Source: Streptococcus sp. F0442 (lineage in GTDB: Bacteria > Bacillota > Bacilli > Lactobacillales > Streptococcaceae). From it: a DNA stretch of 64,000 nucleotides. How positions within the stretch are numbered: position 1 is the stretch's first letter; every line of letters begins with the position of its first letter. The stretch lies in NCBI RefSeq assembly GCF_000314795.2, contig NZ_KB373314.1, positions 864,418-928,417 on the forward strand, read 5' to 3'. Of the stretch, positions 1,313-45,371 are shown one piece after another. The notes beneath the pieces are model-generated. The model was not told the origin of the DNA. It searched no databases and saw only the letters and a list, made by a program, of their open reading frames with translations. The position numbers and the translations under genes are program-made.

Positions 1313-1317
1313 AAGCA

Positions 1318-1490
1318 GAGGCTGGGACAAAAGTCCTAGCCTCTCAATTGTCTTTGGATTGTCGAGCAAGACGCAGTGGTTGAGTGGGCTCTACTACGCT
1401 GATTTCATCAGCTTTTACAGCCCTACTCAACTGTGCGGAGGTGGGACGACAAAATCGAATTCTAACGAATTACCGATTTCTGTCCCACTC
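1318..1490 (+). repeat. Three-hairpin intergenic repeat, copy A
   Basis: This 173-base element starts six bases after the scrR stop. It recurs at 44520-44692 with the same length and about eight differences counted by eye. Hairpin 1 (1318-1343) has an 11-bp stem, GAGGCTGGGAC pairing with GTCCTAGCCTC, and an AAAA loop. Hairpin 2 (1379-1431) pairs GTTGAGTGGGCT with AGCCCTACTCAAC and contains an inner GCTGAT/ATCAGC stem. Hairpin 3 (1441-1488) pairs GTGGGAC with GTCCCAC and has inner AAATCG/CGATTT and AATTC/GAATT stems. It carries no transposase. It looks like a streptococcal miniature element of the kind that includes BOX and RUP, but I cannot assign it to either. Confidence 0.85.
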
Positions 1491-1503
1491 TCATTTTTCA
1501 TTC

Positions 1504-1528
1504 AAAAAAAGAGCCATCGGCTCTTTTT
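1504..1528. terminator. Bidirectional terminator between scrR and nusB
   Basis: The stem GAGCC (1511-1515) and GGCTC (1519-1523) is extended by an A-run on the left and a T-run on the right. It can therefore terminate transcripts from both the scrR side and the nusB side. Confidence 0.8.
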
Positions 1529-4201: not shown

Positions 4202-5152
4202 CTATCTGTAGAATTCAATTTCATCCACAACTTCATAAACATCCAAGACCCAATCTTTTGGATTGTGTTTCAAGGATGCTTGGCAATATTCACACTTGTC
4301 GATCGAATCGATGGTCAGTGGTGCACCACAGTTCGGACAGTGATCACTGACGACTTCTGAATTCTTAATGATCTCTGTCTGAGCCCCGTGTTCCCGGAGA
4401 AAGACCATGCGGTAAACGGTAAAGAGATCTTTGGTTGGATCCCCTTCGATCACACGACCCGATTCATCGTTTCGAATGTAATCTCTCATGGTCGAAGATA
4501 GAATGACTTCGATGCGGTCATTGCCACCTGGATTTTCGATAAAGTCTTTGATCTTCGAATTTTCCACACGCACGCGCTCTAAAACATTGGTCGTTTTTGC
4601 TCGAATATGCTCTTGCAACTGCGTCAAGTGTTGCTCATAAAGACTGGTACTTTCTAAGTTTCGAACAGAATTCCAATCTTTTTCTGTCCAGGCAGACTGT
4701 AATTGAAGGTAAACCAGCTTGACTTGCGACAAAAAGCGGTCTTCATCAAACATTGGGTCCAATTTTCGGATGCGGCGAATCGCTTCATAGTTGTTTTCAA
4801 TTGGTCGACCCGCCCGTTCTTCGGTTGTCCGTTTTGGACCACTATTTGAATAAGACGAATCATCACTCTCATTAGCCTCTTTGGCCAGATTATAGACAAA
4901 ACCAACTAAGCCAATGATAGCGACAACTGCAATACCACCAGAGTCTGTTCCAGAACTAGAACTGTAGCTACTGGATCCACCAGACCAGCTGCTTCCACCA
5001 CCAGACCAGCTACTTCCACCGCCACCACCACCAGAATGAATAGTGCTACTACCACCACTATGTGTATTCCCAACACCCGCATGGGCTTGAGGGACAAATA
5101 CAAATAGAAGGGCTACTAGAAGGATTCCCAATACTAAAATACGTTTTTTCAT
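4202..5152 (-). CDS. Secreted/anchored Tim44-like domain protein with zinc ribbon
   Basis: This is a 316-residue protein. It has an N-terminal signal or anchor (about residues 1-26, ending AHA), then a Gly/Ser-rich low-complexity stretch of about 45 residues, and a second hydrophobic segment (GGIAVVAIIGLVGFVYNLA). A Tim44-like domain follows (FDEDRFLSQVKLVYLQLQSAW to TVYRMVFL), then a C-terminal zinc ribbon, CPNCGAPLTIDSIDKCEYC. If the first segment is cleaved and the second spans the membrane, the Tim44 and zinc-ribbon part would be cytoplasmic. It is the first gene of a pair with the SPFH protein. Its biochemical role is unknown. The Gly/Ser region is coded by repetitive GGN and TCN/AGC triplets and may vary in length between strains. 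Confidence 0.75.
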   Translation of the reverse strand: MKKRILVLGILLVALLFVFVPQAHAGVGNTHSGGSSTIHSGGGGGGSSWSGGGSSWSGGSSSYSSSSGTDSGGIAVVAIIGLVGFVYNLAKEANESDDSSYSNSGPKRTTEERAGRPIENNYEAIRRIRKLDPMFDEDRFLSQVKLVYLQLQSAWTEKDWNSVRNLESTSLYEQHLTQLQEHIRAKTTNVLERVRVENSKIKDFIENPGGNDRIEVILSSTMRDYIRNDESGRVIEGDPTKDLFTVYRMVFLREHGAQTEIIKNSEVVSDHCPNCGAPLTIDSIDKCEYCQASLKHNPKDWVLDVYEVVDEIEFYR

Positions 5153-5209
5153 AGGCCTCTTTTCTTATTGTTATCTTTTAAATAGGAGCTAAGAAAAACT
5201 CAATCGATT

Positions 5210-44519: not shown

Positions 44520-44692
44520 GAGGCTGGGACAAAAGTCCTAGCCTCTTAATTGTTTTTGTACTGTTGAGCAAGACGCAGTGGTTGAGTGGGCTCTACTACG
44601 CTGATTTCATCAGCTTTTACAGCCCTACTCAACTATGCGGAGGTGGGACGACGAAATCGAATTCTAACGAATTCCCGATTTCTGTCCCACTC
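44520..44692 (+). repeat. Three-hairpin intergenic repeat, copy B
   Basis: This 173-base copy of the element at 1318-1490 differs at about eight positions by eye. Five of these fall in the linker between hairpins 1 and 2, while the stems of hairpins 1 and 2 are identical. In hairpin 3 an A-to-G change (copy B GAAATCG) adds one pair. It ends four bases before the ktrA stop codon. Relative to the gene it adjoins (ktrA, minus strand) its orientation is opposite to that of copy A, which lies after scrR on the plus strand. Confidence 0.85.
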
Positions 44693-44696
44693 TCTC

Positions 44697-45371
44697 TCAG
44701 TTTGTTTCCTCTAAGAGGTCTTGGATTCTATCCAGATACTGGTTGTCTGTCACCGCCATCACGCGCACCCCTTCTGGCCAGATAAAGTCGGGACCAATCT
44801 GACTTCGCAAAGGCTGGTCTTCCGCATCTCGATAGCCAATAATATTGAGTTGAAATTGGTCTCTGATTTCCAAGTCTCGGATGCTTTTTCCTACCCAGCT
44901 AGCTGGAACCGTAAACTCGACCACCACCACTGCTTCATCCAACTGGAAAACTTCAATCCCATGTTGGAAGAGGATCATCTTAGCTAGAGACATGCCCGCT
45001 TCTACCTCTGGTAGGATGACCAAATCAGCCCCAATCCTCTCAAGGACTTCCTTGGTCACTTCATTTTTAACCTTGGCAATGACGTGCTCGACTCCAAGGG
45101 CCTTACAGTGCATGACCGCCAGCACACTGGACTCTAGGTTTTCACCCGTCGCGATCACGACTGTGTCACAGGTACCGATATCAGCCGCATCCAAGAGGTC
45201 CATTTCTGTAATGTCTCCAACAATTCCAGTCGTAATCATGGATTCATATTGGTTGATCACATCTGCGTGATCGTCAATTGCAATAATATCCACATCCTGA
45301 TCCTGTAAGGTTTTCAGGACACTCTGTCCAAAAATTCCCAATCCTAAAATTCCAATGGTTCGATTCGCCAT
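44697..45371 (-). CDS. ktrA: KtrA-type potassium uptake regulatory subunit
   Basis: This 224-residue RCK protein has the Rossmann nucleotide site RTIGILGLGIFGQSVLKTL with a downstream acidic DD near residue 34. The C-terminal RCK_C domain spans about residues 135-224. It is a cytoplasmic ring that gates the KtrB channel on ATP/ADP binding; many streptococcal members also bind cyclic di-AMP in RCK_C, which I cannot confirm here. It starts nine bases after ktrB ends. Its stop codon nearly touches repeat copy B, whose hairpin 3 may act as its terminator. Confidence 0.9.
   Translation of the reverse strand: MANRTIGILGLGIFGQSVLKTLQDQDVDIIAIDDHADVINQYESMITTGIVGDITEMDLLDAADIGTCDTVVIATGENLESSVLAVMHCKALGVEHVIAKVKNEVTKEVLERIGADLVILPEVEAGMSLAKMILFQHGIEVFQLDEAVVVVEFTVPASWVGKSIRDLEIRDQFQLNIIGYRDAEDQPLRSQIGPDFIWPEGVRVMAVTDNQYLDRIQDLLEETN

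Follow-up and report, generated by a model that had tools for sequence, protein, structure and literature searches.

A structured streptococcal repeat, with related forms in staphylococci, that alternates with plain terminator hairpins at gene ends

The window analysed here is a 64,000-nt stretch of the Streptococcus sp. F0442 genome (contig NZ_KB373314.1), and coordinates without further label refer to it. It contains two copies of a 173-nt intergenic element, each at the end of a protein-coding gene. The features at the two loci, with the basis on which each was placed, are as follows:

1318..1490, + strand: element copy 1, type A, 173 nt, from DNA search and pairwise alignment; its neighbours are a LacI-family gene (+ strand, ends 1312) and nusB (- strand, ends 1531)
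1317..1344, + strand: hairpin 1 of copy 1, GAGGCTGGGAC AAAA GTCCTAGCCTC, from the fold; terminator-like in the + strand scan
1345..1371, + strand: variable linker of copy 1, holding 5 of the 8 differences between the window copies
1372..1437, + strand: hairpin 2 of copy 1, from fold and covariation; its 3' arm has a conserved single-base bulge
1438..1492, + strand: hairpin 3 of copy 1, from fold and covariation, with a conserved AC bulge, followed by ATTTTT on the + strand
1506..1528, no strand assigned: plain terminator hairpin adjoining copy 1 on the nusB side, from the scan; also in the relatives G030 and G101, both without the element
44520..44692, + strand: element copy 2, type A, 173 nt, from DNA search and pairwise alignment; it adjoins the 3' end of a TrkA-type gene (- strand, ends 44697)
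44520..44545, + strand: hairpin 1 of copy 2, from the terminator scan
44574..44639, + strand: hairpin 2 of copy 2, placed by ungapped alignment with copy 1
44640..44694, + strand: hairpin 3 of copy 2, placed by ungapped alignment with copy 1

Copy 1 starts 6 nt past the end of the LacI-family gene, and copy 2 lies 4 nt from the end of the TrkA-type gene, near which TrkH and GH31 genes are found. An earlier note, made from the letters of the window alone, had reported two equal-length copies at these coordinates, in opposite orientation relative to the gene that each follows, and both statements are correct (LacI-family gene on the + strand, TrkA-type gene on the - strand). The copies are 95% identical over 175 nt. 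Where the note had counted about eight differences by eye, there are exactly 8, at element positions 28, 35, 40, 42, 46, 116, 134 and 155, and the first five fall in the linker after hairpin 1, as it had said. Its remark that hairpins 1 and 2 have invariant stems also holds, since position 116, the only change in hairpin 2, is an unpaired base in the predicted fold. On the - strand, hairpin 1 of copy 1 is followed by GCTTTT. Both copies open the same mechanical open reading frame (..KTQWLSGLYYADFISFYSPTQLCGGGTTKSNSNE.., at 1359-1556 and 44564-44785), and such element-borne frames may be prone to mis-annotation as hypothetical proteins.

The unit consists of three stacked hairpins, usually preceded by an A-rich and followed by a T-rich stretch, and its ends form imperfect inverted repeats (AGAGGCTGGGAC / AGAGAGTGGGAC). 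Type A members are near-identical, and the diverged types B and C share their plan, type C being seen for hairpins 2 and 3 only. The 181 nt around copy 1 are predicted to fold into three hairpins on both strands (z -7.4 on the + strand and -8.2 on the - strand), none of 200 shuffles of the stretch being as stable, and a single-stranded-DNA fold of the same stretch likewise gives three hairpins (z -7.9). Covariation was evaluated in an alignment of 21 sequences, made up of 19 of the 20 representatives with less than 90% mutual identity (one truncated sequence was left out) and the two window copies. RNAalifold places 40 pairs on this alignment, and 24 of them carry at least one compensated double change. 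Paired cells reach 96.3% as against 78.6% in shuffles, double-changed cells number 141 as against 37 in shuffles, and the covariation score is 0.466, compared with 0.133 for shuffled alignments and at most 0.092 for slid structures. The compensatory changes thus exceed chance and the stems are not broken in other copies, which bears out the structure-preserving conservation that the earlier note had read from two copies. The AC bulge of hairpin 3 and the single-T bulge of hairpin 2 are invariant in all 21 sequences, 5 of which are staphylococcal.

When one doubtful pair is left out, the alignment has 814 paired cells, comprising 779 Watson-Crick, 5 G-T, 8 A-C and 22 other combinations. Because the G-T and A-C counts are low and similar, the composition suggests a role for the palindrome as DNA or on both strands, and less as a single RNA strand. 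Six distinct tRNAs from the same stretches contain 18 G-U pairs in 142, a rough comparison in which the A-C count of the tRNAs is meaningless, as the tRNA program reports standard pairs only.

The position of the element relative to genes was surveyed for 40 F0442 copies, using mechanical open reading frames with a minimum of 80 codons. For 32 of the 40 copies a gene 3' end overlaps the copy or is no more than 25 nt away, in keeping with the gene-end location seen at both window copies in the earlier note. On the hairpin-3 side the gene reads towards the element in 31 of the 40, and 27 of these genes end within 21 nt of it or overlap it. Frames are present on both sides of 38 copies, with 12 pairs convergent, 24 in the same direction and 2 divergent; the same-direction copies divide 17 to 7 by orientation. 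A simple terminator scan calls hairpin 1 on the + strand and does not call the two outward-facing forms. Its gene-end position and its hairpins would fit an intrinsic terminator, and the element may terminate transcription, one of the functions that the earlier note had listed as possible.

The unit known to the earlier note from two copies recurs in the genome and in most of the genomes of the genus that were searched. A DNA search of F0442 (2.23 Mb in 3 contigs) finds at least 40 near-full-length copies at 95-100% identity as well as a single inverted match of 28 nt; the count is a lower bound, since scoring covered 40 of the 69 first-look candidates. The covariance model R1, built on hairpins 2 and 3, has 65 matches in F0442 with 150 of 1,926 candidates scored, one match being the opposite strand of another. 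Among 147 Streptococcus genomes, the 173-mer matches 102 at E <= 0.001 and R1 matches 120 at E <= 1e-5. A class-wide R1 search of 398 genomes from 145 genera yields 52 matching genomes at E <= 0.001 in two genera, 25 in Streptococcus and 27 in one genus of another order; in the class and genus scans the filters were stricter and scoring covered part of the candidates, so that weak members elsewhere could escape them. The genome G102 has 153 first-look candidates, the highest number among the genomes listed in the genus search, and its copy number may be well above 40.

By sequence match the second genus is Staphylococcus: a pattern from its members matches S. pragensis, S. coagulans and S. xylosus, and one of its genomes is 100% identical to the S. 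pragensis flank. One staphylococcal member has matches in 16 plasmid records, each covering 48-55% of the query and each from Staphylococcus, while the streptococcal plasmids with matches are two records, NZ_CP020429.2 and NZ_CP018188.1 (207 and 188 kb), with one whole and one partial copy. The plasmid copies offer a possible route between hosts. A search of 50,697 phage records gave one partial match. The repeat, which occurs in streptococci and, in related forms, in staphylococci, is apparently unnamed. Searches of the open-licence literature found neither a description of this repeat or of a terminator swap nor a paper on repeats shared by Streptococcus and Staphylococcus, and the repeat is not described in the available portions of PMC3049150, PMC2267715, PMC2884548, PMC2828477, PMC2965389, PMC3532100, PMC5826253, PMC2873960, PMC3446304, PMC9093591 and PMC3364214. 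The end motif of hairpin 3 occurs in primers for loci of S. aureus and S. oligofermentans (PMC9093591, PMC3364214), with no repeat mentioned in the text available.

Alleles at element sites were compared in five 400-kb samples, from F0442, G038 and G138 (syntenic), from G279 and from G135 (two 200-kb pieces). These hold 67 type A copies, or 46 sites after shared ones are merged. The 268 copy-by-genome comparisons comprise 154 without usable flanks, 51 with a shared element, 8 with another family member, 40 short alleles and 15 long alleles. The 40 short alleles represent 18 sites, each of which was inspected by eye in joined-flank alignments, with orthology assessed over 450 nt on each side (unrelated DNA has a mean of 0.40). 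At 12 of the 18 sites both flanks are orthologous (0.70-0.97) and a plain terminator hairpin of ~16-26 nt stands exactly at the element position, between similar A-rich and T-rich flanks. The plain hairpin and the element are therefore alternatives at orthologous sites. The 12 swap sites, given by the genomes and positions of the element copies, are:

Swap site 1: F0442 711238 and G279 727880
Swap site 2: F0442 740504 and G038 1006200
Swap site 3: F0442 841954
Swap site 4: F0442 799707
Swap site 5: F0442 801360
Swap site 6: G279 706710, G038 1013402 and G138 928487
Swap site 7: G135 196735
Swap site 8: G138 671626
Swap site 9: G038 1062074 and G279 749824
Swap site 10: G038 931734
Swap site 11: G038 940544
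Swap site 12: G038 1107619

Three further sites (F0442 964731, G135 340337 and G038 1077824) lie within copies of a second interspersed repeat; their outer flanks mismatch, and the comparison is with non-orthologous copies of that repeat only. The remaining three (G138 736469; G138 724213/G038 781755; F0442 908937) are ambiguous by eye. At none of the 18 sites was a plain hairpin seen by eye beside the element, and no target duplication was noticed in the joined-flank alignments. Breakpoints fall mostly within A- and T-tracts (by eye), and at F0442 964731 the left arm of hairpin 1 is a chimera that starts with bases of the old hairpin. At two swap sites (G038 1006200 and G279 706710) an arm of the plain hairpin resembles hairpin 1 (AGGCTGGG), and the plain hairpin there is possibly a collapsed element. 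The plain hairpins at the other ten look unrelated to the element, so that simple deletion of the element would not give them.

The second interspersed repeat is itself a multi-hairpin unit of ~200 nt (AAACTTTCCGCCGTGAG..GGTTCAAAACTAAGTCATGGAACTTCGTAGAAGTTCGCTGACGTCCG..CTCACCTAAGGAAAGTTT), located around F0442 C1:964731 and 671500, at G038 C1:1077824 and at G135 sample position 340337. Some of its copies are missing a terminator-like hairpin and have the 173-nt element in its place. Another repeat context (..CGTGTTCAATTCGTGTAAC..), with one diverged member per orientation, is present at ~4700-5200 of locus L141 (F0442 C1:844700-845170) and in relatives.

The site of copy 1 is a further case of the plain and element alternatives, in addition to the 12 swap sites. 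A plain terminator lies between matching flanks in G030 and G101, and G140 has another plain one. In G135, G132 and G024 (loci L079, L081 and L082) the same site holds the element inverted with respect to the window copy and with hairpin 1 in decay, and in G094, G038 and G138 a diverged relative lies behind a plain terminator, a tandem state. At the site of copy 2 (F0442 908937), G094 shares the element and the comparison with G138 is ambiguous; in G030 and G132 the end of the TrkA-type gene is marked by a plain terminator, and the left flank is mismatched. Among 30 staphylococcal loci, a few of which were examined closely, the site of the S. pragensis copy was compared. L291, whose flank is identical, carries the element. 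In L293 the left flank is the same and leads into a plain hairpin (AAAAAAGGCGGTGAAC..GTTCACCGCCTTT), with an unrelated stretch on the other side. L292 has this kind of hairpin ahead of the matching right flank, again with an unrelated stretch on its other side, and a similar plain hairpin stands by itself in L297 and L298. At this site AAAAAAGGC is common to the left flank and the element, and CCTTTTT to the right flank and the element. The staphylococcal support for replacement is thin, as it comes from one site that is not clean.

A control was performed in the same stretches with plain terminators whose perfect stem has at least 7 pairs, over five directed genome pairs. Of 570 such terminators, 253 lack close flanks; the 317 compared gave the same hairpin in 280 cases, the element in 10, other short alleles in 15 and long alleles in 12. 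The 10 element outcomes correspond to 9 unique sites, 8 with type A and 1 with a diverged type. By eye, the 15 other short alleles include at most one unrelated plain hairpin and one deletion, the rest being the same hairpin drifted. Each 400-kb stretch contains 107-116 plain terminators as possible donors. With at most one plain-to-plain exchange against nine unique element sites, the exchange looks like a property of the element and not of terminators generally, and the control lends no support to general terminator shuffling.

The direction of change was read from local flank identities. At G038 1062074 the plain genomes F0442 and G138 share a hairpin and have a mutual flank identity of 0.78/0.85, as compared with 0.91/0.91-0.94 between G138 and the element genomes; the plain genomes being further apart than G138 is from the element genomes, the plain state is the older one at this site. 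At F0442 841954 G135, the most distant of the genomes, is plain as well. At two sites, F0442 711238/G279 727880 and F0442 740504/G038 1006200, G138 is plain and falls within a group of element genomes, which points to element loss or parallel gain. The direction is clear at few of the 12 sites. G135 was rejected as an outgroup: its identity to F0442 is 77% at the site of window copy 1 (G038 96%) and 96% at that of window copy 2 (G038 88%), and this flip indicates that the genomes are mosaic. In 14 of 15 genome groupings the similarity between orthologous copies slightly exceeds that between copies from different sites (for example F0442 to G038, 4 pairs, 0.949 vs 0.946), which is compatible with constraint or conversion.

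The explanation preferred here, held with somewhat better than even confidence, is that a mobile structured repeat serves as a gene-end terminator and spreads by hairpin replacement. The element would end transcription at gene ends, probably in both directions, using hairpin 3 and its T-tract on one strand and hairpin 1 and its T-tract on the other. At a new site the plain hairpin (~16-26 nt) would be lost and the whole element would take over, with breakpoints in or beside the A- and T-tracts common to terminator and element. The change would run mostly from plain to element, probably as one microhomology-guided event such as template switching or single-stranded DNA annealing. An element-specific driver is also likely on this account, because plain terminators do not interchange at a comparable rate.

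Three other explanations were weighed against hairpin replacement. Exchange may need no special driver: microhomology in A/T-tracts, or transformation, would swap alleles in either direction, and selection would favour a strong two-way terminator. The position of breakpoints mostly in A- and T-tracts (by eye), the chimeric left arm at F0442 964731 and the two sites that point to a change from element to plain or to parallel gain all fit such exchange. It is nonetheless rather unlikely in view of the strong bias, 9 unique element sites against at most one unrelated plain hairpin with 107-116 donors per 400 kb, and a terminator needs no long interior with bulges invariant across two genera. A conventional MITE, inserted at or in a terminator by a trans-acting transposase with later deletion of the redundant hairpin, is unlikely. 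It would account for the imperfect inverted repeats at the ends and for the diverged relative found beside a plain terminator in some relatives at the site of window copy 1, but the old hairpin accompanies a type A element at 0 of 18 sites, no duplication was noticed, and of 8 genomes tested 7 lack Y1 transposase genes, each of these 7 having at least 25 model matches. Clean insertion was likewise set aside, as empty sites with a duplication were sought and hairpin alternatives were found instead. Profile matches in three 400-kb stretches include no isolated left end. Of the earlier note's proposal of a mobilised, MITE-like element, the mobilised part is supported by copies that are interspersed, apparently mobile and located at gene 3' ends. 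The MITE-like part is not supported in that form: no duplication of the target was noticed, and where relatives lack the element they have a plain terminator hairpin there and no uninterrupted site.

A regulatory RNA, acting as a 3' UTR or small RNA (an mRNA stabiliser or protein-binding site) whose selection as RNA explains both copy number and covariation, is a little less probable still. Strong covariation with conserved bulges, a resemblance below threshold to the S. aureus small RNA S35 and the 17 to 7 division of same-direction copies are what this reading leads one to expect. For the small-RNA and mRNA-stabiliser roles put forward in the earlier note, the S35 match of hairpin 3 is the one hint. 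Neither strand is favoured, however, by 5 G-T and 8 A-C in 814 cells where tRNAs have 18 G-U in 142 pairs, and the element occurs in either orientation at one site in different species.

A bolder reading is put forward tentatively and considered doubtful: a new mode of mobility, in which a gene-free DNA element copies itself by replacing resident terminator hairpins. If true, the shape of A-tract, hairpin and T-tract would be the address, read through an element-specific factor or a folded single-stranded intermediate, and the process would operate in streptococci and staphylococci, converting many gene ends and leaving the genes undisturbed. For most short bacterial repeats, insertion is the presumed way of spreading. 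An element that replaces a functional part with a working substitute would explain how tens of copies can accumulate harmlessly, and modular terminator exchange would have a natural example in it. The movement of orphan palindromic repeats would become testable in naturally competent laboratory streptococci, and a single family would take in many intergenic repeats, so far anonymous, of two much-studied genera.

Several known systems resemble the element in part. At gathering score, Rfam has no family in the window. Hairpin 3 resembles, on the - strand, the first 67 positions of the Rfam model S35 (RF02894; srn_0335) at 27.1 bits, sub-threshold relative to the gathering score of 69, and since the model has 270 positions the match covers a part only. 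Other weak Rfam matches of small regions look like chance. S35 is listed with Northern-blot evidence and as a 'Repeated region' in the portion of PMC5826253 available, and the element may account for part of this S. aureus small RNA. The S. aureus stem-loop families Sta-1, Sta-3 and Sta-4 (PMC2267715), known here by the description in the accessible text alone, could include hairpin 3. The STAR repeats of staphylococci, as described in part of PMC3532100, are intergenic too. Their 14-nt core, T(G/A/T)TGTTG(G/T)GGCCC(C/A), has no exact match in the window and exact matches at 3 of 320 loci, the staphylococcal L295 and L304 and the streptococcal L285. In L295 a STAR-type core lies at 2486-2499, between hairpins 2 and 3 of a family member, and STAR repeats may nest in this element.

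BOX, RUP and SPRITE are short intergenic structured repeats of pneumococci, with SPRITE terminator-like and enriched between convergent genes, and the ends of RUP resemble IS630-Spn1, according to the available text of PMC3049150. The same text gives them a lower density in S. mitis, reports BOX-related repeats in S. suis and hardly any of these repeats in the rest of the genus, states that other species had no thorough de novo repeat search, and contains no description of terminator-hairpin replacement for them. As short intergenic structured streptococcal repeats they are alike in kind to the element, compared by description only; the earlier note did not match it to any of the three. The element has three hairpins, whereas SPRITE is described there as one long stem with a long T-rich tract.

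REP and BIME sequences are hairpins with conserved bulges at gene 3' ends. The hairpins of the element also carry conserved bulges at gene 3' ends. BIMEs are cited as bidirectional terminators in the part of PMC2965389 available. The Y1 transposase that drives REP/RAYT (PF01797) is absent from F0442 and from 6 of 7 other genomes in a search whose control detected it in 5 of 14 known genomes, and a Y1/RAYT driver was rejected on finding no gene in 7 of 8. DNA-uptake motifs are ~10 nt long and occur at about a thousand copies. Kingsford 2007 is reportedly the study cited for terminators formed from them. Such terminators of Neisseria and Pasteurellaceae, mentioned in the available text of PMC2267715, resemble the present case as a repeated motif that now forms many terminators. 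They differ from it in that the unit here is 173 nt long with tens of copies per genome, and a DNA-uptake motif was set aside because the copies are too few. The mobile attenuators and terminators of Naville and Gautheret (2010), as far as the text available describes them, move between unrelated genes carried by inserting insertion sequences or prophages (PMC2965389). Like these, the element would be a terminator moving between unrelated genes; unlike these, the element and a resident hairpin alternate at one place, and no gene is carried.
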